Origin: Armatimonadota bacterium
Lineage (GTDB): Bacteria; Armatimonadota; Zipacnadia; Zipacnadales; UBA11051
DNA length: 64,000 nt
Reading direction: 5' to 3'
NCBI GenBank assembly: GCA_013178155.1
Contig: JABLXH010000033.1
Coordinates: 1-64,000 of the forward strand
The notes under the pieces are model-generated. The model was not told where the DNA came from, did no database searches, and saw only the letters and a program-made list of their open reading frames with translations. The translations under genes were made by a program, and so were the position numbers. Of this stretch, positions 28,432 to 46,784 are shown in pieces (the first letter of the stretch is position 1; every line of letters starts with the position of its first letter).

Positions 28432-29082
28432 TCAGCGGAAGGCTTCTCGTACCACGCGCTCAAACGGCAAGCCGTCGCCAGGGCAAGCCGTCGGGGCGTA
28501 GTCGCGATGGCGATGGATGTTCGCGGGCGTGAAGCCGTAGCGGCGGATGAGGCGCTCCAGCAGGTGGTCCAGGGCCGCCAACTGGGCCTCGGTGGGCCGA
28601 TTGGGCCCGTATCGTCCGTGGGGGTTGGCGCTGGAGCTGAAGTTGCCTACCAGACAGATGCCGAGCTGGTCGTTGTGCCCCTCACAGTGGGCGCCCCGCA
28701 TGTGCTCCGGCCGCCCGCGCTGAATGGTGCCGTCGGGCAGGATGACGTAGTGGTAGCCTACATGGTAGGTCCGGTCCTCCCCGGCCCGGGCAAACCCCCG
28801 TCGCTCATGCCAGCGGTCAATCAGGTGTACGTCCACCTCCTGCCCCTCGGCGGTGGCCGGACTGGCGCTGTGGTGGATAATGATGCCGATGGGGCTCGTC
28901 GGCAGCAACTGCCGCCACCAGCCGCTCCCGTACTGCATGCCCAGCCAGGTCCAGCCGAGACCGCCAATGGCCAGGCCCAGCAACAGCCACGCGCAACCGT
29001 TCTCCGTCCGGCTGAGGGCCTGCAGCAGCGCGGGAAGCCCGTGGTGACCGCTTGGTCTTTGGTCTGCCATGCCAGGAACCAT
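28432..29082 (-). CDS. membrane-anchored N-acetylmuramoyl-L-alanine amidase (PGRP/amidase_2 type)
   Basis: About 216 residues. One N-terminal transmembrane helix (CAWLLLGLAIGGLGWTWLG) precedes an amidase_2/PGRP domain that cleaves the muramyl-peptide bond of peptidoglycan at the periplasmic face. Zinc-ligand motifs: IIIHHSAS near residue 72, and HRHRDYAPTACPGDGLP near 186-202; YHYVILPDGTIQRGRP is the characteristic middle strand. ATG 29082 or 29070 are both possible and neither has a good ribosome site; the frame to 29178 begins with TTG. Convergent with the prepilin gene. Probable role is cell-wall turnover or recycling. Confidence 0.88.
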   Translation of the reverse strand: MVPGMADQRPSGHHGLPALLQALSRTENGCAWLLLGLAIGGLGWTWLGMQYGSGWWRQLLPTSPIGIIIHHSASPATAEGQEVDVHLIDRWHERRGFARAGEDRTYHVGYHYVILPDGTIQRGRPEHMRGAHCEGHNDQLGICLVGNFSSSANPHGRYGPNRPTEAQLAALDHLLERLIRRYGFTPANIHRHRDYAPTACPGDGLPFERVVREAFR

Positions 29083-29253
29083 TTCGCCAGGACGAACCGC
29101 GGGCCTGCCCGGCACGGCGGGGCCACGAAAGCCGGTGACGCACTCTTGCCGGTTTCGTCCCAAGAATGTGCTGACCAAGCGTGACCCTCACCAAGCCCCC
29201 CGCGTTATCATCTGTAGACTGACCAAACTGACGTCGGTCGAAGGGATTGCGGC

Positions 29254-30552
29254 ATGTCAGAAGAGCGAACTGCACCAACGGGCCTGGTGGGCTTCCTGCG
29301 GTGCTGCCAGCCGTCGAAGCTCGTTGGCTACAGCGGAATCGCGCTGGCTGCCCTGTTGCTGGTGGTGTACCTGGTCTGGGGGCGGCAGTGGCTGGCGATG
29401 CACCAGGAGATGTCGGGGCAGGCCAGCCAGACGCTTATCTCCATCGTTGATGTCTTCTCCTGCTGTGTGCTGACGCCCAAGATTCTGACGGTGATGCTGC
29501 CGGCCTTCGTCCTGGCCGGGGCCATCTCGGTCTTCCTGCCGACGCCGGTAATCTTGCGCTACCTCGGCGCCGGCACCCGCAAGGCCACGGCATACTCTGT
29601 GGCGGCCATCTCGGGGATGGTGCTGTCGCTCTGTTCGTGCAACGTGATTCCGTTGTTCGCCAGCATCTATCGGCGCGGCGCGGGGCTGGGCCCAGCCTTC
29701 ACTTTCCTCTTCGCCGGGCCGGCTATCAACGTCGTGGCCATGATCTTCACCTTCCAGGTCATCGGGGTGAAGCTGGGCATGTGGCGGGCTGTGGGTGTGC
29801 CCGTCATCGCCATCGCCGTGGGCCTGATCATGGCGGTGCTCTTCCGCCGGGAGGCTGCCGCGAAGGCTACGGCGCCGACGGCCGTGGCCGTCCACGCCGA
29901 CAGTCCCACTCGAAACGGCCGGCTGTGGCTGCTCTTCGGCCTACTGCTGGTCACCGTGATCTATGGGGCCTGGGATGGGCTTTGGCGCACCTCCAGCGAA
30001 GGCACGATCCTCGGCGCCACCTGGTGGCTGGCGGGGATGGTCCCCCTGGTCGTCGCGACCGCTGGGGTACTCGTCTGGGGCTTCGAGCGCAGCCAAGTGC
30101 TGGCGCTGTTGCGCGAGACGTGGGCGAACATCAAACTCGTCGTGCCCGTGCTGCTGCCGGCAGTCCTAGCCATCGGTGCCCTGGCGGCCTTCATTGACGT
30201 CAAACTGGTCTACCGATGGGTCGGCAGCGCACCGGACAGCGCAGGACTGTGGGGAACCATCCGGCCCATCCTGGTCGGTACGCTGTTTGGGGAGATCATG
30301 TACTTCCCGATCCTGACGGAAGTCGCCTTCACCAAGGCCTTCCTGAAGCTGGGGATGGGCGTGGGCCCGGCGCTCGCGATATTGCTCACGGGACCCGGAA
30401 CCTCTCTACCGGGCGCCTTCATCATCGCTCGAGCCATTGGCTGGAAGAAGGCGCTGGCCTTTGAGCTCGTCGCCATGGCGGTAACGGCCATCTACGCCGT
30501 CGTGTTTGCTACTGAGATTGGCGAGTACATTTGTGCCTGCATGATGAACTGA
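29254..30552 (+). CDS. DUF318/ArsP-type permease
   Basis: 432 residues with about ten transmembrane segments in two homologous halves. The first half holds the LCSCNVIPLFASIYRRGAG motif (around 128-146) and the second PGTSLPGAFIIARAIG, typical of the PF03773 permease family (ArsP organoarsenical efflux, SO_0444-type metal efflux). Also SCCVLTP near residue 70. Members export thiophilic species in some organisms, but many are unassigned. First gene of a plus-strand run with ABC binding proteins and thioredoxin-like lipoprotein; only 17 bases separate it from the next gene. ATG 29254 was chosen; a clear promoter was not found upstream. Confidence 0.85.
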   Translation: MSEERTAPTGLVGFLRCCQPSKLVGYSGIALAALLLVVYLVWGRQWLAMHQEMSGQASQTLISIVDVFSCCVLTPKILTVMLPAFVLAGAISVFLPTPVILRYLGAGTRKATAYSVAAISGMVLSLCSCNVIPLFASIYRRGAGLGPAFTFLFAGPAINVVAMIFTFQVIGVKLGMWRAVGVPVIAIAVGLIMAVLFRREAAAKATAPTAVAVHADSPTRNGRLWLLFGLLLVTVIYGAWDGLWRTSSEGTILGATWWLAGMVPLVVATAGVLVWGFERSQVLALLRETWANIKLVVPVLLPAVLAIGALAAFIDVKLVYRWVGSAPDSAGLWGTIRPILVGTLFGEIMYFPILTEVAFTKAFLKLGMGVGPALAILLTGPGTSLPGAFIIARAIGWKKALAFELVAMAVTAIYAVVFATEIGEYICACMMN

Positions 30553-30569
30553 CACTGAGGAGGAACTGA

Positions 30570-31472
30570 ATGCGTTCATTGGCCACCGTCGCTTTGCTGC
30601 TGGCATTGGCGGTCACCTGTCTGGTATTCGTGGGGTGCAAGCAGCCCGCGACCAACGCCGGCGATAGCACCCCGGTCGCCTCGTCACCCCTGCCGGCTCC
30701 CGAAGGCACCACCGGTGCCGCAGACAAGGCCTCCGCCGAAGAGATCAAAGTGTACGTGCCCTGCGGCATGATCGTCCCGGTCAAGGCCGTGATGAGTGCT
30801 TACGAGGCTCAGAACCCGGGGACGAAGGTGACCGGTGTCTTTGACAATGGCGGGATCATTGTGGAACGTCTGACCAAGAAGGGCGAGAAGGCCGACGTCG
30901 TCATGACTGCCGGCCGGGTTGAGATGAAGGCCTTGCAGGACGCGGGGCTGGTGAGCGCCGACGCCGTGCAGGCTCTTGGCGAGTTCGAACTGGTGGTCAT
31001 CGTGCCGAAGGCCAGCAAGCTGGGCCTGAAGACTCCGGCCGACCTCAAGAAGTGTAAGACCATCGCTTCGCCAGACCCGGACGTGAACTCCACCGGGGCA
31101 TCGGGCAAAGAGGCCCTGACCAGCCTGGGCCTCTGGGACGAGCTGAAGCCCAAGATGGTCTTCACGAAGCATGCCATCGAGGCTTACACGATGGTGGCCA
31201 GCGGCAAGGCCGACGCGGCGCTTGCGTACCGGAACTGCCCGCTTGAGACCAACCCGGAGAAGCTCAGCAAGTCCAAGGTCGGCCTTGCCTTCGACATCCC
31301 CGAAGATGCCTACAAAAAGCAGCAGTGCCTTGTTGCCCCCGTGCAGGGTGGGAGGACCGAGGCGGCTGGCAAGTTTGTGGCCTTCATGGTCTCCGACGAG
31401 GGACGCAAGCTGCTGTCGGACAACGGTCTTTCGGGCGCCCTGGACTTGAACAAGCCCGCCGGGACCAAGTGA
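30570..31472 (+). CDS. ModA-like solute-binding lipoprotein with PCG motif
   Basis: 300 residues. A lipobox (LVFVGC, Cys23) and a low-complexity linker lead to a type-2 periplasmic binding fold of the molybdate/sulfate class (IKVYVPCGMIVPVKAVMSAYEAQNPGTKV). In ModA the first loop has small/Ser residues that bind the oxyanion; here it is PCG with Cys65. Cys223 (AYRNCPLE) sits where ModA has its second-lobe ligand loop, and Cys162 and Cys253 are additional. ATG 30570 has GAGGAGGAACT upstream. Expected to deliver a ligand to the ABC permease at 33678. Whether the ligand is an oxyanion or a thiophilic metal is open. Confidence 0.85.
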   Translation: MRSLATVALLLALAVTCLVFVGCKQPATNAGDSTPVASSPLPAPEGTTGAADKASAEEIKVYVPCGMIVPVKAVMSAYEAQNPGTKVTGVFDNGGIIVERLTKKGEKADVVMTAGRVEMKALQDAGLVSADAVQALGEFELVVIVPKASKLGLKTPADLKKCKTIASPDPDVNSTGASGKEALTSLGLWDELKPKMVFTKHAIEAYTMVASGKADAALAYRNCPLETNPEKLSKSKVGLAFDIPEDAYKKQQCLVAPVQGGRTEAAGKFVAFMVSDEGRKLLSDNGLSGALDLNKPAGTK

Positions 31473-31489
31473 TACGGAGGATGATGAGC

Positions 31490-32032
31490 ATGCACCGAGT
31501 GGCTTTGACAGTCATCGTGGTCTTGCTTCTGCTTGCTGTCCTGGGGTGCAAGGGGCCCCAGCAGGCGGCGCAGACGGTACAGCCTGCAAAGGCTCCCGAA
31601 GTGGCGGCGGCCGAAGCGGGGAAAACGGTAGCACCCGCGGCGTCCAAACCAGAACCGGCCGGCGAGGAAGCTACCGCCACTGCCAAGGATGACGGCGCCA
31701 TACAGGTCGTGGCCTACTACCCCGACAACGAGGGCCACGCCAAGATCAAGGCGATGATCGAGGGCCTGAACACGAAGTACCCGGGCAAGGTCAAGGCCGA
31801 GTTCGTAGACTTCACCTCCGATGAGGGTTTCAAGCGCTGGCAGGACGATGGCCTCAGTTGCGGCGGCATCCTGATTAACGATGAGCAGACCTTCACCTAC
31901 GAGAAGGACGGGAAGACCACCGAGGTCACCTTCAAGATGGCCGAGGGTGGCGAGTGGACCAAAGCTGACCTCTACGCTGTGATAGAGAAGCTCATCGCTG
32001 AGCAGAAGAAAACGCAGAGCAAGCAGCAGTAG
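31490..32032 (+). CDS. thioredoxin-like-fold lipoprotein
   Basis: 180 residues: a lipobox LLAVLGC (Cys20), an Ala/Pro/Glu-rich linker to about residue 66, then a compact alpha/beta domain (IQVVAYYPDNEGHAKIKAMIEGLNTKYPGKVKAEFVDFTS) whose strand-helix-strand order resembles thioredoxin. It lacks CXXC; the only cysteine of the domain is Cys124 in GLSCGGILIN, at the place of a cis-proline loop. It ends with a WTKADLYAVIEKLI helix. ATG 31490 is nine bases from GGAGG; ATG 31481 and 31484 are too close. Lies between two PCG-type binding proteins, so likely part of the same transport or redox system. Function not known. Confidence 0.75.
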   Translation: MHRVALTVIVVLLLLAVLGCKGPQQAAQTVQPAKAPEVAAAEAGKTVAPAASKPEPAGEEATATAKDDGAIQVVAYYPDNEGHAKIKAMIEGLNTKYPGKVKAEFVDFTSDEGFKRWQDDGLSCGGILINDEQTFTYEKDGKTTEVTFKMAEGGEWTKADLYAVIEKLIAEQKKTQSKQQ

Positions 32033-32050
32033 TGGTGGCTGATGTTGTCT

Positions 32051-32082
32051 CGGCCGGGCGAGGGACATGCCTCGCCCGGCCG
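32051..32082 (+). terminator. strong intercistronic hairpin
   Basis: A perfect 13-bp stem, CGGCCGGGCGAGG (32051-32063) with CCTCGCCCGGCCG (32070-32082), and a six-base loop, just after the thioredoxin-like gene and 18 bases before ATG 32101. No T-run; it could partially terminate or stabilise the upstream RNA. Confidence 0.5.
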
Positions 32083-32100
32083 CATACCGGAGGCGTTCGT

Positions 32101-33681
32101 ATGTCCAAGCATTATCATCTGATTATCATTATCGGTCTCGCAGTCACCGTCGCTGGCTGCTCGAAGCCTGCCGACAAGCAGACCCAGACCCCGCCCAAGG
32201 GTGCTGGCCCTGCAGCGCGGGTCAGCGGTGAGATCCTCGTCTTCGTCCCCTGCGGAGTGGCTGGCCCTTACGGTGAGATCAAGAAGCTTTTCGAGGCCAA
32301 GTACCCCGGGGTCAAGGTCACGCAGGAGCTGGCCAACATTGACGTCCAGACGAAGCTCATTCTGGACGGCAAGGCTGCCCCTGACATGTGGATTGCCCTC
32401 GGCGATCGTGAGATGAATCGGGTCAAGGAGGCCGGCAAGGTCGCCGGCGAGCCAGTGACGTTTGCCTACAACTCCATCGCCTTTACCGTCCACAAGAACA
32501 ACCCCTGTGGCATCGCCTCGCTGCAGGACCTTACCAAGCCCTCCGTCAAGACCATCGCCCTGGCCACACCGGAAAACAGCTCCGGCTACTACGCCGAGCA
32601 GGCCTTCCGCCAGGCCGGCGTGTGGGAGCAGGTGGAGAAGAAGATCTGGTTGACGCCGGAGCCGGCACAGGTCAAGGTTGCCCTCTCCAGCGGCAAAGCC
32701 GAGGTCGGCGTCGTCTACTACCCGTGTGCCCGCGAGACGCGCATCATGGGTGGCGAACCGGAGGAGATGAAGGGTAAGCTGCAGCTGCTCAACAAGTTCC
32801 CGGAGGACGTCGCCAAGCCGTTCCCCGCTCAGGCTGCGGTGATTCAGGGCTGCGCTAACCCCGAGGGCGGCAAGGTCTTCCTGGACTTCATGCTCAGCGA
32901 CGAGGTTCAGGACGTCTGGGAGAAATGGGCTTTCGACCGCGCCAAGCAGCCTGCCAGTGGGAAGCGCGTGGTCCTGTACATGTACTGCGGCGCCGGTATC
33001 CGCCCGATGATGGACGCGGCCATCGAGGCCTTCAAGCAGGTCAGGCCCAACGTTCGCATCGACGTTGGATATGCTGGCTCGGGATGTCTCTTGGGGCAGC
33101 TCACGTTCGGCAAGCGGGGTGACCTGTATATGCCGGGCGAGGACTTCTACCTGAATCAGGCAATGGACCGCGGCTATATCGCGTCCTCCAAGCCCATCGG
33201 ATACTTTGAGCCAGTTCTGCTCGTCGCCAAAGGCAACCCGAAGAACATCAAGACACTTCAGGACCTCACGCGACCGGGACTCAAAGTGGCGCTTGGCGAC
33301 GCCAAGGCATGTGCAGTCGGCCTGACGGCTGATCGTCTGTTGGGGAAAGCGGGGCTTGCTGAAAAGGTGGAAAAGAACGTTGCAGTCAGGCACGGCAACG
33401 TGCCCGAGCTGGGCAATGCCGTGAAGTTTCGTACCATCGACGTGTCCATCGTCTGGAACGTGACTGCAACCCAGCAGCTTGAGGACTGCGACAGCATCCC
33501 GATTGACCGCAAGTACTATGAACCGTCCTTGGCGCCGATTGGTCTGCTGAAATTTTCAAAACACAGCGAGGAGGCGCAGGCTTTCATTGACTTCCTGGCC
33601 GGGCCGGAGGGCCAGAAGATCGTTGCTGACAGCGGCATGACGCCCGCCGCCGGAAGCAAGGCAGCAGGATCAGGGTCATGA
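32101..33681 (+). CDS. double-domain ModA-like solute-binding lipoprotein
   Basis: 526 residues: lipobox (VTVAGC, Cys20) and two consecutive type-2 binding folds. Domain one (about 45-285) opens with VFVPCGVAGPYGEI (Cys51) and has Cys209 in VYYPCARE, matching Cys65 and Cys223 of the 30570 protein; Cys136 and Cys251 are extra. Domain two (about 288-515) opens with VLYMYCGAGIRPMM (Cys296) and has GSGCLLGQL (Cys329), Cys404 and Cys463. Single-domain CGAGxRP proteins are annotated elsewhere as molybdate-type binding proteins. ATG 32101 follows GGAGGCG; its stop overlaps the next ATG (ATGA), so translation is coupled to the permease. Confidence 0.85.
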   Translation: MSKHYHLIIIIGLAVTVAGCSKPADKQTQTPPKGAGPAARVSGEILVFVPCGVAGPYGEIKKLFEAKYPGVKVTQELANIDVQTKLILDGKAAPDMWIALGDREMNRVKEAGKVAGEPVTFAYNSIAFTVHKNNPCGIASLQDLTKPSVKTIALATPENSSGYYAEQAFRQAGVWEQVEKKIWLTPEPAQVKVALSSGKAEVGVVYYPCARETRIMGGEPEEMKGKLQLLNKFPEDVAKPFPAQAAVIQGCANPEGGKVFLDFMLSDEVQDVWEKWAFDRAKQPASGKRVVLYMYCGAGIRPMMDAAIEAFKQVRPNVRIDVGYAGSGCLLGQLTFGKRGDLYMPGEDFYLNQAMDRGYIASSKPIGYFEPVLLVAKGNPKNIKTLQDLTRPGLKVALGDAKACAVGLTADRLLGKAGLAEKVEKNVAVRHGNVPELGNAVKFRTIDVSIVWNVTATQQLEDCDSIPIDRKYYEPSLAPIGLLKFSKHSEEAQAFIDFLAGPEGQKIVADSGMTPAAGSKAAGSGS

Positions 33682-34478
33682 CCGCGCGGCAGCGAGCCAG
33701 TGCGGCTCTGTTCCGCTACCTGGTCACCTCCGCCCTGTTCGTGATGGTCGGAGTCACCACTTTCACCCTGCTGAACATGGCGCTCTATGTCAAGCCTGGG
33801 GAGTTTCTGCAGGCCGCCTTGTCGCACGAGATCATCCATGCCGTCAAGTTGACGGCGGTCACCACCACCATTACCACAGGTATCGCGGTCCTGCTCAGCG
33901 TGCCGGCGGGCTATGCCCTGAGCCGCTACCGGTTCCCCCTCCACAATCTGGTGGATGCGCTGGTAGATCTGCCCATAGTCCTGCCACCGTTGATCGCCGG
34001 AATCGCGATGCTCATTTTTTTCGGGTCGCCTCTGGGCAAGTGGATCGAAGAGCACATCATGCCTTTCGTCTATACGACCCAGGGGATCATTCTGGCTCAG
34101 TTCGTGCCCGCGGGCAGCTTCTGTGTCCGGGCGATGAAGGCCGCCTACGACGGCGTTGACCCGCGACTGGAGCAAGTGGCCCGGACCCTGGGGTGCAATG
34201 AGAGGCAGACCTTCCAGCGGGTGACCCTGCCGCTGGCGCGCAACGGCCTGATCGCCGGGATGATCATGACCTGGTGTCGCGCAGCGGGCGAGTTCGGCCC
34301 CATCCTGATGTTCTGTGGCGCCACGCGGTACAAGACCGAGGTGCTGTCGATCGCGGTGTTCCTGAACATGTCCATTGGGCAGGTGGAGGTGGCGCTGAGC
34401 GCAACCATCCTGCTGGTGTTGATGGGCGTGGCGGCACTGCTGCTGTTCAGAAGGCTGGGGGGCCGGGGCATATGGTGA
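33678..34478 (+). CDS. ModB-like ABC transporter permease with extra cysteines
   Basis: 266 residues, about six transmembrane segments and the EAA-type loop typical of molybdate/sulfate importers (EQVARTLGCNERQTFQRVTLPLARNGLIAG). Cysteines at 149, 173, 200 and 213 include MTWCRAAGEFGPILMFCGAT, where ModB usually has RALGEFGATLMFAGN. The cysteines near the gate parallel those in the binding proteins. It starts at ATG 33678 overlapping the previous stop, and ends overlapping the next start (ATGGTGA). Forms the channel for the ATPase at 35245. Confidence 0.9.
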   Translation: MTARQRASAALFRYLVTSALFVMVGVTTFTLLNMALYVKPGEFLQAALSHEIIHAVKLTAVTTTITTGIAVLLSVPAGYALSRYRFPLHNLVDALVDLPIVLPPLIAGIAMLIFFGSPLGKWIEEHIMPFVYTTQGIILAQFVPAGSFCVRAMKAAYDGVDPRLEQVARTLGCNERQTFQRVTLPLARNGLIAGMIMTWCRAAGEFGPILMFCGATRYKTEVLSIAVFLNMSIGQVEVALSATILLVLMGVAALLLFRRLGGRGIW

Positions 34479-35248
34479 AGCTCCTGGGACTGGGAGCCCT
34501 GGCCGTGCTGCTGCTGGGCGGCTGCCGTCCCGGGACCGTGAGCATCAAGGTCCGCGGCGGGCCCTCGCTCAACGGCCTGTTTGCTGAGCTATCGCAGGCC
34601 TTCGAGGCGGAGAACCCCAGCCTGCGGGTGGACGGGGACTTCACGTGTCCGCCGTGTATCCTGCTGCAGCCGGGGAACCGCCCACCCATGTTCGATCTCT
34701 TCGTCGCGCTCGGCGATCAGGAGATTGAGTTTCTGCAGGCTCAGCCTAACGGCCTAGCTTTCGGGGAGCAGCGGACTCTGGGCCACACATCGCTGGTTCT
34801 GGTGACCTCCGCGCGGACCGATCCGCCGATCAGAACCCTGGCTGACCTGCACCGGGAGGGCCTGGGCCAGATTGGCCTGGGCGACCCGGAGCAGACGTCC
34901 GTGGGCTACTATGCCAGGAAGGCACTCCGGAAGGCTGGTCTGTGGGGCGAACTCAAGCCCCATTTCCTCTACGCCCGCAGTGGCTGTGAGCTCCTGAAGT
35001 GGCTGGCCCTGGGGCGCGACCTGGACGCCGCATTCGTCTATGGCATCTGCACCCGGGAGGTGGGCGGCGGGCTGCGTTCGGTGGTGGACCTGCCGGAGGG
35101 TAGCACAGAGCCGATCCCGGTCATCCTAACGGCTGTCCAGGGCTCCCGGCGGCCGGCCGAAGCGCGTCGGTTCATGGATTTCTGCGCCAGTCCGGCCGTC
35201 GCCGACATCCTGCGGCGCTATCTGGTCGAACCGGTGAAGCAGCCATGA
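34472..35248 (+). CDS. third ModA-like solute-binding lipoprotein (CPPC variant)
   Basis: 258 residues with lipobox LLGGC (Cys18). The first ligand loop reads VRGGPSLNG rather than PCG, but a CPPC motif (Cys59, Cys62) occupies the GS-x loop region, and Cys193 (VYGICTRE) lines up with Cys223 and Cys209 of its paralogues; Cys172 and Cys238 are extra. Between permease and ATPase genes, overlapping both (ATGGTGA at 34472, and its TGA overlaps ATG 35245). Such placement supports one transcript and one transporter. Why three binding proteins serve one permease is unknown. Confidence 0.8.
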   Translation: MVKLLGLGALAVLLLGGCRPGTVSIKVRGGPSLNGLFAELSQAFEAENPSLRVDGDFTCPPCILLQPGNRPPMFDLFVALGDQEIEFLQAQPNGLAFGEQRTLGHTSLVLVTSARTDPPIRTLADLHREGLGQIGLGDPEQTSVGYYARKALRKAGLWGELKPHFLYARSGCELLKWLALGRDLDAAFVYGICTREVGGGLRSVVDLPEGSTEPIPVILTAVQGSRRPAEARRFMDFCASPAVADILRRYLVEPVKQP

Positions 35249-36306
35249 TCGAGGTCAAGGACCTGCACAAGGCGCTCGGGGAGTTTTCCTTGCATGGCGT
35301 GGACCTGCGGGTGGAGTCGGGCGAGTACTTCGTCGTCCTCGGCCCCACCGGCTCCGGCAAGACAGTCCTTCTGGAGTGCATCGCCGGGCTCCACCGCCAG
35401 GACCGCGGCGAGATCTGGCTGGAGGGACGTGAGGTCAGCGCCCTGGCTCCCGAACAGCGCAACATCGGCTACGTCCCACAGGACTATGTGCTGTTCCCGC
35501 ACATCTCGCTGCAAGCCAACATCGCCTTTGCGCTAAATGTCCGCCGCCGGCCGCCCGACGAGATCGAGGCGCGGGTAAGGGAACTGGCAGAGCTCCTGCA
35601 CATCAGTCACCTGCTGGACCGTCGCCCCCGCACGCTCTCCGGAGGGGAGCAACAGCGTGGGGCTCTGGCCCGGGCGCTGGCGCCACGGCCGACGCTGATG
35701 CTGCTGGACGAGCCCCTCAGTGCCCTTGATGAGGGTACCCGGGCCGAGTTGGCGGGCGAACTGCGGGGCCTTTCCGGGCGCCTCGGCACGACCATTATCC
35801 ATGTCTGCCACAACTTCGACGAGGCGCTGCAACTGGCGGACCGCATTGCCATCATCCACGGCGGCCGGGTCCTGCAGGTCGGGACACCCGGCGACGTCTT
35901 TCGCCGTCCCCGGAGCGCCTTCGTGGCCCGCTTTGTGGGGGCGGAGAACATCTTCCCGGTCATACAACGTGATCACCGTGCGAATGTGGTGACGGTGGGC
36001 CAGAGCTTGCCGTTGCAGGTTACCGCCCTGCCCGACCACCCATCGCTGCTGACGATGATCCGGCCGGAGGAGATCATGCTGCGCCCGGCCGATGCGCCCA
36101 TGCCCCCCTTCAACAGCTTCCATGCGAACCTGCTTGAGGTGGAGGACCGGGGACGCCTGATGCGGCTGAACTTGGCCGGGCCGCTGCCGCTGCTGGTGGT
36201 GATGACGCCCCAGGCCTTCCGCGAGTCGGGCGTGGCGCCCGGCGACCAGGTCCAGGTCCACTGCCCTCCGGAGGCGGTGCACCTCCTCCCGCAGGACTCC
36301 CCATAG
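35245..36306 (+). CDS. ModC/CysA-like ABC transporter ATPase with TOBE domain
   Basis: 353 residues. Walker A GPTGSGKT (33-40), Q-loop at VPQD (77-80), signature LSGGEQQR (131-138), Walker B LMLLDEP (151-157), H-loop His189 in IHVCHNFDEA (the usual Thr of HVTH is Cys). Residues 240-350 form a TOBE-like regulatory domain (RPEEIMLRPAD). It powers import by the permease at 33678. The gene overlaps its predecessor by four bases and ends 13 bases before the convergent amidohydrolase. Generic annotation would be molybdate or sulfate transport ATPase; the cysteine-rich partners make that uncertain. Confidence 0.92.
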   Translation: MIEVKDLHKALGEFSLHGVDLRVESGEYFVVLGPTGSGKTVLLECIAGLHRQDRGEIWLEGREVSALAPEQRNIGYVPQDYVLFPHISLQANIAFALNVRRRPPDEIEARVRELAELLHISHLLDRRPRTLSGGEQQRGALARALAPRPTLMLLDEPLSALDEGTRAELAGELRGLSGRLGTTIIHVCHNFDEALQLADRIAIIHGGRVLQVGTPGDVFRRPRSAFVARFVGAENIFPVIQRDHRANVVTVGQSLPLQVTALPDHPSLLTMIRPEEIMLRPADAPMPPFNSFHANLLEVEDRGRLMRLNLAGPLPLLVVMTPQAFRESGVAPGDQVQVHCPPEAVHLLPQDSP

Positions 36307-42613: not shown

Positions 42614-42642
42614 TTGACATGCGACGGCCATGAGGCTAAGAT
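42614..42642 (+). promoter_or_regulatory. sigma-70-type promoter of the sulfate transport operon
   Basis: TTGACA (42614-42619), 17 bases, TAAGAT (42637-42642). Transcription would start near 42649, about 70 bases before ATG 42719. A palindrome at 42643-42671 overlaps that start. Confidence 0.75.
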
Positions 42643-42671
42643 TGCACTCAGACGGGAGTGTCATGAGTGCA
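42643..42671 (+). promoter_or_regulatory. operator-like inverted repeat at the sulfate operon start
   Basis: TGCACTCA (42643-42650) and TGAGTGCA (42664-42671) are perfect 8-bp inverted repeats separated by 13 bases. The position right at the predicted transcription start suggests repressor binding; no known regulator motif is recognised. Confidence 0.5.
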
Positions 42672-42718
42672 CTATATGGACGCCCACGGGGGTGTCCGCT
42701 CGGGGAGATGTCCGCCAC

Positions 42719-43816
42719 ATGCGATCCGCGCTGCCGCTTCTGCTTCTCGCCCTCCTTCTGAGCCTGACCGTCATGTCGCTGTCCGGGTGTCCGCAGGCCC
42801 AGGAGCCGTCGGCAACGGCGCCGTCGGCGGCCGAGCCGGCCCCGGCGCCAGGCAAGGACATCGCCGGTGGCCCGGTGACACTGACGTTCGCGGCTTACAC
42901 CGTACCCAAGGAAGCGTACCAGAAGTCTGTTATCCCGGCCTTCAAGAAGTACTGGAAAGACAAGACCGGGCAGGATGTGGAGTTCGTGGAGTCCTACGAG
43001 GCCAGTGGGGCCCAGAGCCGGGCCATCTGCAGCGGGCTCGAGGCCGATGTGGCCTGCCTGTCCCTGGCAGCGGACATTGACCGCATCAAGGACAAGGGAC
43101 TCATCACCCACGATTGGACCTCCAAGCCCCACAAGGGCATGATCACCAACTCGGTCGTCGCTCTCGGCGTCCGTCTGGGCAACCCAAAGGGGATCACCAG
43201 GGATTGGGAGAGTATCGCCAAGCCGGGCATCGAGGTCCTTTGCCCGAACCCGGAGACCTCTGGCGGGGCGCAGTGGGACGTCAACGCCATCTACGGCGGC
43301 GGCCTCAAGGCCAGCGAGAAGAAGGGTAGGAAGGACGAGGCCTACGCTGCTGACCTGCTGAAGCGCGTCCGCCGGAACATCAAGGTCATGGACAAGAGCG
43401 GCCGCGCCTCGATGACCACCTTTGAGAAGGGCATCGGCGACGTGGTCATCACCTACGAGAACGAGCTTCTCCTGCGCAACATGGTGAGTGAGAAGTACGA
43501 GATCATCATCCCCGACGCCACGCTGCTCATCGAGAACCCGGTGGCCGTCGTGGACGTGAATGCCGACAAACATGGTGTGCGCGAGGTGGCTGAGGCCTTC
43601 GTGGACTTCCTGTGGACCACGGAGGCGCAGGAAGGCTTCGGCAAGTACGGCCTGCGTCCCGTCGATCCGGAAGTCTTCAAGCGGTTCGCCGACAAGTATC
43701 CGACCCCGCCGCAACTCTTTACCATGGAGTATCTCGGCGGGTGGGAGAAGGTGAACAAGGTCATCTACGGCCCCGATGGCCTGTGGACGAAGATCGGCCG
43801 TGAACTGACGAAGTAG
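42719..43816 (+). CDS. sulfate/thiosulfate ABC transporter substrate-binding lipoprotein
   Basis: 365 residues. Lipobox SLSGC (Cys24), an Ala/Pro linker, then the sulfate-binding fold: TFAAYTVPKEAYQKSVIPAFKKYW, ESYEASGAQSRAICSGLEADVACLSLAADID, CPNPETSGGAQWDVN and NPVAVVDVN. The SGAQSRA and TSGGAQW loops are the anion-binding segments of Sbp/CysP. It captures sulfate or thiosulfate for the permeases that follow. ATG 42719 is preceded weakly by GGGGAG; the frame to 42614 lies inside the promoter. A hairpin separates it from the permease genes. Confidence 0.93.
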   Translation: MRSALPLLLLALLLSLTVMSLSGCPQAQEPSATAPSAAEPAPAPGKDIAGGPVTLTFAAYTVPKEAYQKSVIPAFKKYWKDKTGQDVEFVESYEASGAQSRAICSGLEADVACLSLAADIDRIKDKGLITHDWTSKPHKGMITNSVVALGVRLGNPKGITRDWESIAKPGIEVLCPNPETSGGAQWDVNAIYGGGLKASEKKGRKDEAYAADLLKRVRRNIKVMDKSGRASMTTFEKGIGDVVITYENELLLRNMVSEKYEIIIPDATLLIENPVAVVDVNADKHGVREVAEAFVDFLWTTEAQEGFGKYGLRPVDPEVFKRFADKYPTPPQLFTMEYLGGWEKVNKVIYGPDGLWTKIGRELTK

Positions 43817-43852
43817 CCGCGCCTTCGGCAATAACTCATCGCGCGCCTCCTC

Positions 43853-43880
43853 TCCCGGGGGCTGCCGGCAGCCCTCGGGA
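43853..43880 (+). terminator. intercistronic hairpin in the sulfate operon
   Basis: TCCCGGGGGCTGCC (43853-43866) against GGCAGCCCTCGGGA (43867-43880): a near-perfect 14-bp palindrome with one mismatch, between the binding-protein and permease genes. Such structures commonly give more binding protein than permease. Confidence 0.55.
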
Positions 43881-43893
43881 GGGGAGCCGGGGG

Positions 43894-44775
43894 GTGTCAA
43901 CCCCAGAAACCGTGCGAGACCCCAACGTGACCACCGTCACCCTCAGCCAACACCCCACCTCCGGGCCCATCAACTGGGCCGCCTACACGGTGCGCGCCAC
44001 GGCCATCGGCTACATCGGTCTCCTGGTCTTGCTGCCGCTAGTGGCCCTGGCGGCCTCGGCAGGCCATGTGCCCCTGCGACAGCTCCTGGAGAGCCTGCGG
44101 CAGCCGGAGGCGACTCACTCCCTGGCTCTGACCTTCGGCACGGCCCTTGCCATGGCGCTCATCAACTCCGTCACCGGCACCGTGGTGGCCTACTGCCTGG
44201 TGCGCTATGAATTCACCGGCAAGTCGTTGCTGAATTCGCTGGTGGACCTGCCCTTCGCCATCCCGACAGTGGTCACTGGGCTGATGCTGGTGGTGCTCTA
44301 CGGTCCCGGCAGCGCTGTGGGCCATTTCCTGACCACCCACGGCGTCGAGGTGATGTACGCCAAGCCAGGCATTGTCCTGGCCCTGCTCTTCGTCACGTTC
44401 CCCTTCGTGGTGCGCGCGGTGCAGCCGTTGCTGCTGGAGATGGACCTGGAGACCGAGGAGGCAGCCCATACGCTCGGAGCGGGGCACTGGCTGACCTTCC
44501 GGCGGGTCACGCTCCCCACGGTCGCGCCGGGCCTGGCGACGGGAGTGACGCTCAGCTTCGCCCGCGCCCTGGGAGAGTTCGGCTCGGTGGTCATCGTGGC
44601 CGGCAACATCCCGCTCAAGACCCAGGTGGCCTCGGTATATATCTACGGCCAGATTGAGACCAGCCAACCCGAGGCTGCGACGGCCATGTCGCTGGTGCTG
44701 CTGGCAGCGTCCCTGATCTTCCTGGTCACGGTGGATTTCCTGCAGCGGAGGGGGGCCGCCACCCATGAGCGTTGA
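43894..44775 (+). CDS. cysT: sulfate ABC transporter permease CysT (CysU)
   Basis: 293 residues with six transmembrane segments and the importer EAA loop (EEAAHTLGAGHWLTFRRVTLPTVAPGLATG) followed by FARALGEFGSVVIVAGNIP, typical of CysT/CysU. The start is GTG 43894 preceded by GAGGGGAGCC; a second GTG at 43912 is possible. It overlaps the next gene by 11 bases. Makes the membrane channel with CysW. Confidence 0.93.
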   Translation: MSTPETVRDPNVTTVTLSQHPTSGPINWAAYTVRATAIGYIGLLVLLPLVALAASAGHVPLRQLLESLRQPEATHSLALTFGTALAMALINSVTGTVVAYCLVRYEFTGKSLLNSLVDLPFAIPTVVTGLMLVVLYGPGSAVGHFLTTHGVEVMYAKPGIVLALLFVTFPFVVRAVQPLLLEMDLETEEAAHTLGAGHWLTFRRVTLPTVAPGLATGVTLSFARALGEFGSVVIVAGNIPLKTQVASVYIYGQIETSQPEAATAMSLVLLAASLIFLVTVDFLQRRGAATHER

Positions 44776-45718
44776 GGTCGCGCCCGTCTTCCGCCGGGCC
44801 ACGTACAATCGCCGCGACACCACACGCGCGGGCCTCCTGGCCGGCACATGGGTCTACTTCGGCCTGCTCATTCTTCTGCCCATCGTCTGGATGCTCAAGG
44901 AAGCGCTGGCCCAGGGCCCGGCGTCCTTCCTGAACCAGTTCCGCCAGCCAGAGGTCCTCCATGCTTTCATGATGACCGCAGGGCTAACGGTGGGGGCTGT
45001 GGTCATCAACACCTGTTTCGGGGTCGTGGTGGCCTATGTGCTGGTACGGCAGCGCTTCTGGGGCAAAGGCCTGCTCAATGGCCTGGTGGATCTGCCCTTT
45101 GCCCTTTCGCCCGTCATCGCCGGCTACATGCTCATCCTGCTCTTTGGGCCCGATGGCTGGCTGGGCCCGACGGTGTCCCGCTTGGGCGTGAAGATTGTCT
45201 TCTCGTGGCCGGGGATGCTCCTGGCAACATTGTTTGTGACGCTTCCGTTTGTGGTGCGCGAAGTAGGCCCTGTGCTCGCCGAGATCGGGCGCGAGATGGA
45301 TGACGCCGCGGCAACGCTGGGCGCCGGACGTCTCTACACCTTCTTCGTGGTGACCATCCCCTCCATCAAGTGGGGGCTGCTTTACGGCATGACGCTGACC
45401 ATCGCCCGCGCCATCGGCGAGTTTGGGGCGGTTCTGGTGGTCTCGGGTAACATCATCGGCAAGACCCAGACGGCCACCCTGCTCATCCACCAGTCCATGG
45501 TGGACATGCAGGAGAACACGGCTTTCGCGGCCGCGGTAGCGCTGGCGCTCATCTCCTTCGTAGTGTTGCTGGCCTCCGAAGTCATCCGAGTGCGGTCCCA
45601 GCGGACCATCGAGGGCGGCCGTCCGGCCGGCATGCCCGGGGGCACAGAGGCGCCCGTGGCCGAGTACTCGCGCCGCGACGACCCCCAGGACACAGCGTGG
45701 CGCGGCGGCGTGGCATGA
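44765..45718 (+). CDS. cysW: sulfate ABC transporter permease CysW
   Basis: 317 residues with six transmembrane segments. The EAA loop reads MDDAAATLGAGRLYTFFVVTIPSIKWGLLYG, followed by ARAIGEFGAVLVVSGNIIGKTQTATL as in CysW. The C-terminal 40 residues form a hydrophilic tail. ATG 44765 overlaps the end of cysT. Partner of CysT in the sulfate/thiosulfate importer, 28 bases before cysA. Confidence 0.93.
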   Translation: MSVEVAPVFRRATYNRRDTTRAGLLAGTWVYFGLLILLPIVWMLKEALAQGPASFLNQFRQPEVLHAFMMTAGLTVGAVVINTCFGVVVAYVLVRQRFWGKGLLNGLVDLPFALSPVIAGYMLILLFGPDGWLGPTVSRLGVKIVFSWPGMLLATLFVTLPFVVREVGPVLAEIGREMDDAAATLGAGRLYTFFVVTIPSIKWGLLYGMTLTIARAIGEFGAVLVVSGNIIGKTQTATLLIHQSMVDMQENTAFAAAVALALISFVVLLASEVIRVRSQRTIEGGRPAGMPGGTEAPVAEYSRRDDPQDTAWRGGVA

Positions 45719-45746
45719 CTGGCAGCAACTGGAGAGCGAGGGAACG

Positions 45747-46784
45747 ATGACTGACCGCATCGAGCTTCGGATAGACGGCATCAGTTACCACTACGGCAAC
45801 TTCCCGGCGGTGGACCAGGTCAGCTTTGAGGTGCACGAGGGTGAACTCGTGACTCTCCTGGGTCCCAGCGGCAGCGGGAAGAGCACGATTCTGCGCCTGA
45901 TTGCGGGCCTGTTGCGGCCTTCGACCGGACGGGTGGAGATCGGCGGTCAGGACGCCACCCGCCTGCCGCCACAGCAGCGCAACGTGGGCTTCGTGTTCCA
46001 GCAGTATGCGCTCTTTCGGCACATGACGGTCTTTGACAATGTGGCCTTTGGGCTGCGCGTTCGCAAGTGGCCCAGAGAGCGCATCGCCGAACGCGTGGCC
46101 GAGTTGCTGCGCCTGGTGCAGCTACAGGGCGAGGAGCACAAGCGCCCGGCCCAGCTCTCTGGCGGCCAGCGACAGCGCGTCGCTTTGGCCCGGGCTCTGG
46201 CCCCCAGCCCCCGCGTGTTGCTGCTGGACGAGCCCTTTGGCGCCGTGGACGCCAAGGTGCGCCTGGAACTGCGCGAGTGGCTGCGGCGGCTGCATGACGA
46301 CTTCCACGTCACCTCTGTCTTTGTGACCCATGACCAGGAGGAGGCGCTGGAGCTGTCCGACCGGCTGGTCGTACTCGACCACGGTCGCGTGGAGCAGATT
46401 GGCACGCCTGACGAGATCTACGACCAGCCAGCCACGCCCTTCGTCACCAGCTTCATCGGCCCCGTCAACCAGCTATGGGGCGAGGCCGGCGGGGGCATTG
46501 CTCACGCGGGCGGTTTCGCCGTGCCGGCGGCCTGGGCCAACGGCGACCGCTGCCCGGCGTTGGTGATGGTGCGGCCCGCAGATGTGCGGCTGATCCCTGG
46601 CACGAACGCCACGGTGCGGCGGCTCGTCCACATTGGCGACCTGGCCAAACTGGAGCTGGCGACCGCCGATGAGCAGTTGCTGACCGTGCACTGTTCGCGC
46701 CAGCGGGCGGCCGAGCTCAACCTGCAGCCGGGCGTCAGGGTGGGCACGGAACTGTTGCGTGGCTGGGCCTACCCGAGGGGATAG
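45747..46784 (+). CDS. cysA: sulfate ABC transporter ATPase CysA
   Basis: 345 residues. Walker A GPSGSGKST, Q-loop VFQQ, signature LSGGQRQR, Walker B VLLLDEP, H-loop VTHDQEEA, then a TOBE-like domain. Energises CysT/CysW. ATG 45747 is preceded by GAGGGAACG. Last gene of the operon, followed by the hairpin and T-run at 46798-46819. Confidence 0.94.
   Translation: MTDRIELRIDGISYHYGNFPAVDQVSFEVHEGELVTLLGPSGSGKSTILRLIAGLLRPSTGRVEIGGQDATRLPPQQRNVGFVFQQYALFRHMTVFDNVAFGLRVRKWPRERIAERVAELLRLVQLQGEEHKRPAQLSGGQRQRVALARALAPSPRVLLLDEPFGAVDAKVRLELREWLRRLHDDFHVTSVFVTHDQEEALELSDRLVVLDHGRVEQIGTPDEIYDQPATPFVTSFIGPVNQLWGEAGGGIAHAGGFAVPAAWANGDRCPALVMVRPADVRLIPGTNATVRRLVHIGDLAKLELATADEQLLTVHCSRQRAAELNLQPGVRVGTELLRGWAYPRG

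Follow-up and report, generated by a model that had tools for sequence, protein, structure and literature searches.

The window analysed here is a 64,000-nucleotide stretch of an Armatimonadota genome (part of contig C139; the genome comprises 5.53 Mb in 211 contigs). Between positions 29254 and 36306 of its plus strand it carries a single run of seven genes, A-B-C-D-E-F-G, recognised from the open reading frame (ORF) list and from matches to domain models. We propose that this operon handles soft, thiol-loving metalloid or metal species by thiol ligation, a reading to which, judging from the sequences, we assign a probability of roughly 0.6; this figure refers to the thiol ligation of soft species, not to arsenic. 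Trivalent inorganic or methylated arsenic is our best guess for the ligand, and a tentative one. Computational support comes from the conservation of the operon, the conservation of its cysteines, their placement by alignment to ModA, and fusions that involve gene C.

Three of the genes encode ModA-type binding proteins with SBP_bac_11 domains: B (SBP1; 30570..31472, +; 119.3 against a cut-off of 25), with Cys65 (PCG) and Cys223 (CPLE); D (SBP2; 32101..33681, +; two SBP_bac_11 stretches, 317.1 bits), with Cys51/Cys209 in its first module and Cys296/Cys329/Cys404 in its second; and F (SBP3; 34472..35248, +; 99.8 against 25), with a CPPC motif (Cys59, Cys62), Cys172 and Cys193. A first-pass annotation of this DNA had counted three binding proteins, and all three are SBP_bac_11 proteins, but the middle one consists of two ModA modules, so that there are four modules in total. 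The cysteines it had singled out (Cys65/Cys223 in B, Cys51/Cys209 in D, CPPC and Cys193 in F) are present, invariant in the orthologous loci L048 to L054, and located beside ModA ligand positions. Signal and lipobox cysteines excluded, the seven orthologues share eleven invariant binding-protein cysteines (B65, B162, B223, D51, D209, D296, D329, F59, F62, F172 and F193), whereas six vary (B253, D136, D251, D404, D463 and F238). When aligned to E. coli ModA, ten of the eleven invariant cysteines fall within three residues of positions 12, 39, 125, 152 or 170, which we take to be ligand contacts, as opposed to one of the six variable ones, D404 (one-sided hypergeometric probability ~0.005). Cys65 and Cys223 are present in 17 of 17 aligned B-type rows, and the four cysteines of F (59, 62, 172, 193) in nine of nine. 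Judged by the ModA alignment, on which the cleft placement rests, the gathering of cysteines around the ligand pocket is real and exceeds chance. Since thiols surround the ligand clefts, the ligand is probably something other than plain molybdate. It is position and conservation that carry this signal: the "shared cysteine bias" proposed earlier did not hold up, and cysteine abundance was rejected as evidence, as the operon proteins contain 38 cysteines in 2316 residues (1.64%), an ordinary value next to the 1.36% obtained by pooling 35 further ORFs of the window (at least 200 aa, chosen mechanically, some of which may not be genes).

Similar cysteines recur in related proteins. Among 132 ModA-like domains from the fetched loci, which were retrieved through binding-protein and DUF318 searches and are thus not a random sample, the commonest cysteine columns of 227 are 173, 11 and 41, followed by 123 and 9. 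Of 64 domains with a cysteine at columns 10-12, 63 have another at 170-175, and once duplicates are removed at 80% identity the figure is 58 of 59; kinship inflates this pairing. The 122 domains remaining at 80% identity have cysteines near 11 and near 173 (58 domains), near 39 and near 124 (15), near 124 and near 153 (nine, or ten counting a domain with 173 as well), near 39, 153 and 173 (eight), or near 153 and 173 (six); nine lack a cysteine at all five positions, and the remainder have single or odd ones. On a tree, the Cys11 and Cys173 traits need six and eight changes, respectively, and among four supported independent pairs Cys173 follows Cys11 in 2.6 on average and opposes it in 0.0. 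An engineered counterpart came up in the solved-structure search, PDB 3axf, entitled "Perrhenate binding to A11C/R153C ModA mutant", whose two engineered cysteines align opposite a cysteine of B and Cys172 of F. Two positions mutated there thus hold natural cysteines in the window proteins, although the natural proteins also use other cysteine pairs and trios.

AlphaFold2 models, made for D and F only from window and named-locus sequences, agree with the ModA fold that had been suggested for the binding proteins. The F model (mean pLDDT 84.2, pTM 0.81) matches 7tav_C, 3gzg_A and 3axf_A (Z 24.6-24.7, rmsd 2.8-2.9, 222-223 residues aligned). The D model forms two modules (mean pLDDT 83.7, pTM 0.60), of which the second, D2, matches 4kd5_A (Z 28.3, rmsd 1.6, 225 aligned); the structure matches of D cover D2 only, so that D1 is barely tested. 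For F and D2 the nearest folds of the predicted models are ModA. According to the secondary-structure strings of the models, D Cys51 begins the helix that follows the first strand, and F Cys172 also sits where a helix starts.

The positions given for the genes in the first-pass annotation were all borne out by the ORF check, and domain models confirmed the DUF318 permease, the three SBP_bac_11 proteins, the BPD_transp_1 permease and the ABC ATPase. Its gene set was nevertheless incomplete, since it overlooked gene C (31481..32032, +; start codon uncertain), a small lipoprotein-like protein with one invariant cysteine (codon 31859-31861). The family profile of C gives 176 bits for the window protein. 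In relatives, C is joined to the C-terminus of B-type proteins (L048 to L054, L069, L099, L126) or to the N-terminus of D-type and other binding proteins (L058, L059, L060, L072, L080, L081, L086, L087, L093, L157), and it stands alone in the window and the remaining loci. Because it is fused to binding proteins in these relatives, C belongs to the system. An alignment of 14 rows has one cysteine invariant in all 14, and one proline and one histidine that are nearly invariant. A thioredoxin-like fold is only suspected: as a thioredoxin, C had no significant solved-structure match, and hhalign gave a probability of 6% (E 0.006).

A neighbourhood search, as proposed in the first-pass annotation, finds the order A-B-D-E-F-G in seven other genomes (L048 to L054), with A cut at or near a contig end in L050, L052 and L054. 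Within the phylum, 44 of 291 genomes have D-like sequences (E up to 1e-20). In named genomes the B profile detects 22 loci, of which 20 are labelled Armatimonadota, Armatimonadia, Armatimonadetes, Zipacnadia or Hebobacteria, one Omnitrophota, and one is a metagenome-assembled genome (MAG) labelled Bacillota. BLAST finds an A homologue in 15 of the 22, and at least two of the seven loci without one are cut short. The link between cysteine-bearing binding proteins and the DUF318 permease is real: ModA-type genes lie within 5 kb of A in 24 of 33 loci of the A (DUF318) subfamily. The C domain is near A in 20 of the 33, both C and ModA-type genes in 19, and neither in eight; an E-type ABC permease lies within 8 kb of A in nine loci, or ten with the window, whose own piece in this count ends before its E gene. 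The count covers neither a shorter DUF318 group whose members stop short of the C-terminal CxC (own copy on C72, 387 bits), nor the split-contig matches G257:C919, G250:C48 and G259:C257, where the operon is present, nor the partial match G202:C213. From this neighbour count, the phylum-wide core is permease A, a thiol binding protein and C, and the ABC importer is optional. The label "uptake cluster" was therefore too narrow, as 24 of the 33 DUF318 loci have binding-protein genes and only nine the E-type permease.

Some loci deserve separate mention. The MAG labelled Bacillota (L098), a label that is perhaps wrong, has the same order as the Hebobacteria loci, namely thioredoxin, two binding proteins, C, and then a gene like L101:12975. 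In two phyla, the core of DUF318 and binding-protein genes is adjoined by FtsX/LolD-type ABC genes (L069:10962-13143 and L099:11092-13124). The window's genome has a second operon of the same ABC type (L063, G000:C190:7420-11166) with a double binding protein, an MFCG permease and an ATPase; no DUF318 gene was recognised alongside, and its cysteine set differs from that of the window operon.

Permease A (29254..30552, +; 432 aa) matches the DUF318/ArsP_1 model PF03773 with 164.1 against a cut-off of 32.3 and has Cys70-71 (CC), Cys127/129 (CSC) and Cys427/429 (CxC). In its alignment CSC is invariant in 15 of 15 rows and the C-terminal cysteines are nearly so; the DUF318 alignment had no match among solved structures. 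The ModB-like permease E (33678..34478, +; BPD_transp_1) scores 214.8 against 210.3 with TIGR01581, which we take to be a NifC-like ABC permease model, and 163.5 with ModB TIGR02141, under the cut-off of 182.6. Of the two E motifs pointed out earlier, MFCG (Cys213) is kept in six of seven orthologues but MTWC (Cys200) is not conserved, with cysteine in none of the 32 permease rows covering that site (two further rows do not cover it); Cys173 (LGC) is a widely kept permease cysteine. The ATPase G (35245..36306, +; ABC_tran 115.5 against 25) has a TOBE domain, and the cysteine of its H-loop HVCH (Cys188), also noted previously, is kept in seven of seven orthologues. Its score is under the cut-off for ModC (192.5 against 285.05) and for WtpC, the nearest NCBIfam model (369.9 against 440). 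The operon is flanked by a divergent gene with an Amidase_2 domain (28432-29178). Elsewhere in the window, at 42614-46784, there is another ABC set, with two permease genes, one ATPase and few cysteines, adjoined by a binding-protein-like ORF (42614-43816).

From these data we infer sulfur ligation, the direction of flow, the ligand and the role of C. In the ModA-derived proteins, the ligand would be gripped by the sulfur of two to four cysteines that come from separate loops of the cleft, and the lobes of the binding protein would then close on it. C may hand the ligand, or else electrons, to the binding proteins; import of the ligand would fall to E and G where they are present, and A would move the ligand or a processed form of it, probably outward by analogy to ArsP. 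Trivalent arsenic suits two- and three-thiol sites. A more specific model, which we regard as unlikely, makes the core a binding-protein-dependent secondary transporter, in which a DUF318 permease, dithiol Venus-flytrap proteins and a fused cysteine-transfer domain would act in a TRAP-like manner on a thiol-bound metalloid; an ABC importer would have been added in some genomes, and the thiols would have shifted between cleft positions, with five or more sets in use.

Neighbouring genes bear on the ligand. An ArsD gene over the cut-off (98.1 against 90) lies within the homologous operon of L102/L070 in the relative G209, and two other genomes with the operon have ArsD-like genes, under the cut-off, close to CcdA-like ones. 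In L072, ArsM-like methyltransferase and lipoyl-domain genes directly adjoin A. Also on the side of arsenic, further lipoyl-like genes (BLAST) and aquaporin-like genes (recognised by eye) are near L105 and L099, and L099 also has a Thioredoxin_3 protein and a weak DGC match (23.4 against 27). In the window's own genome, locus L067 (G000:C72) holds a row of an ArsR-type regulator, a DUF318 permease, an ArsE-family thioredoxin, a ProC-like protein, a thioredoxin/MerB-like fusion, a thioredoxin and a CcdA-like protein, and also a divergent cysteine-rich ModA-like gene. Another operon-bearing genome has, at L187:3537-8114, ArsR-like, FtsX-like and LolD-like genes, ArsD (over the cut-off) and an ArsA-like start, all in a row and recognised partly by eye. 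A MerR-type regulator fused to a thioredoxin domain, possibly a regulator of the system, is found near the DUF318 gene at L143:4580-5386 and L105:8467-9255. Among 77 MAGs of marine Armatimonadota, a published account gives ArsC in 16, ArsB in 21 and ArsR in 53 (PMC10290634).

Several observations weigh against thiol ligation of a soft metalloid, or against arsenic as its ligand. With the ModA model TIGR01256 (cut-off 62.5), B (83.1) and D (149.1) score over the cut-off and F (58.7) under it, and the B, D1 and D2 modules all pass; the suggestion in the first-pass annotation of a ligand bound through thiols, not molybdate, is favoured by the placement and conservation of the cysteines but has these scores against it. 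Cys162 of B is invariant in the orthologues yet lies off the ModA site, and the tree pairs test could not reach significance (median p 0.25), with kinship inflating the pairing of cysteines. ArsD was not found in the window's genome, only two of the 22 genomes with ArsD over the cut-off carry the operon (in one of them ArsD lies elsewhere), and the ArsM-like match in L072 is far under its cut-off (104.6 against 500). MoaD lies between the E and G homologues at L070:8676-8951 and L076:9398-9670, MoeB/ThiF-like genes stand beside the cluster at L058:6310-7095, L059:12982-13755 and L072:1916-2656, a ModA-like gene follows G in L050 and L052, and ChrA-like genes are near L056, L057 and L072; such neighbours point to oxyanion or molybdenum biology. 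The MoaD and MoeB/ThiF-like genes are, moreover, an unexplained link to sulfur carriers. Taken together, the ArsD, ArsM-like and ArsE-like neighbours favour arsenic, while MoaD, MoeB-like and ModA-like ones keep molybdenum and tungsten in play.

The operon could accordingly be seen as an uptake system for molybdate or tungstate, or for thiomolybdate or thiotungstate, in which the cysteines would serve to adjust the redox state or the binding of thio-anions. Model names would call E and the B and D modules molybdate proteins, and besides the ModA scores, the ModA folds, the WtpC-like ATPase and the MoaD, MoeB-like, ModA-like and ModBC-like neighbours in relatives speak for it. A separate clean ModA in the genome was not upheld, since the best ModA match (C150) also bears cleft cysteines, and so there is none to point to. 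The operon resembles ModABC/WtpABC in the fold of its binding proteins, with B and D over the ModA cut-off, and in its ModB/WtpC-like permease and ATPase, but it differs in having ligand-loop cysteines, four binding modules, a DUF318 permease and the C domain; E and G stay under the ModB and ModC equivalog cut-offs and F under that of ModA. The cysteine sets, with thiols located in the oxyanion loops, argue against reading a molybdate function from the model names, and most core loci have no nearby E-type permease. Nor are DUF318, ArsD or ArsM-like genes known as molybdenum genes, which also counts against this explanation, and we think it unlikely. We consider still less probable a system for sulfur or selenium/tellurium oxyanions, where sulfane sulfur, thiosulfate, selenite or tellurite would be bound as a thiol adduct and reduced via thioredoxin-like parts. 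MoaD, MoeB/ThiF-like, CcdA-like, thioredoxin and lipoyl-domain neighbours in some relatives would fit, but the scanned neighbours included no recognisable sulfur or selenium enzyme, and DUF318 and ArsD are not sulfur genes.

The nearest described system by parts list is SAO, reportedly the selenocysteine-assisted organometallic system of Haft and Gwadz (2023), although its curated model cut-offs are not reached. NCBIfam has models for SaoA, an ATPase, and SaoE, an efflux transporter. A review names binding proteins SaoB and SaoX, a permease SaoP, a thioredoxin-like SaoT, a MerB-like SaoL, and SaoC (PMC13188914). The claim that no system with such a set had been described finds no support in that form, given this similar list; the exact gene set was not found described in the paper titles and abstract openings searched, a coverage that excludes most subscription journals. 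SAO and the operon share binding proteins, a permease, an ATPase, a thioredoxin-like protein (only suspected in the operon), a DUF318-related efflux transporter (SaoE) and a proposed thiol/selenol ligand chemistry. On the other hand, A scores only 76.8 against the SaoE cut-off of 325 (NF040736), none of B, D and F matches SaoB or SaoX (E up to 0.01), and the window operon has ModA-derived binding proteins and no lyase. Its genes have no in-frame stops in the window ORFs, hence no selenocysteine is seen, with cysteine instead; in relatives, the flagged in-frame stops of L010, L013 and L017, the only rows examined, lie at or after gene ends. An SAO-like function, with thiol uptake of organomercury or another organometal and metal export via the DUF318 permease, would agree with the parts list and with the separate own-genome cluster of a DUF318 permease and a thioredoxin/MerB-like fusion. 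Against it, SaoL and SaoB were not found in the own genome, although the control genomes were silent too, and HgcB, the marker by which mercury methylation was considered and rejected, exceeds its cut-off in no full-operon genome and in just 5 of 291 overall. We find this alternative improbable as well.

Two further comparisons concern arsenic. A belongs to the Pfam ArsP_1 family and shares a CSC motif with ArsP, but has an extra CC, a C-terminal CxC, and the binding proteins and C as partners. The ArsP of C. jejuni exports methyl-As(III) and trivalent organoarsenicals, according to the published account (PMC6205960). AioX requires Cys108 for As(III) binding (PMC7533571), and is thus a periplasmic binding protein that grips As(III) via cysteine, as the window proteins may; the likeness drawn here is one of function, and AioX is a sensor in a signalling system.

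Apart from the proposed SAO system, hardly any case is known to us in which transport binding proteins are dedicated to capturing a thiol-bound metalloid. If the operon does handle soft species by thiol ligation, the ModA scaffold, re-armed with several combinations of cysteines, would amount to a natural experiment that converts a site for oxyanions into one for soft metalloids, and the association with DUF318 would open the substrate of this large permease family to testing.

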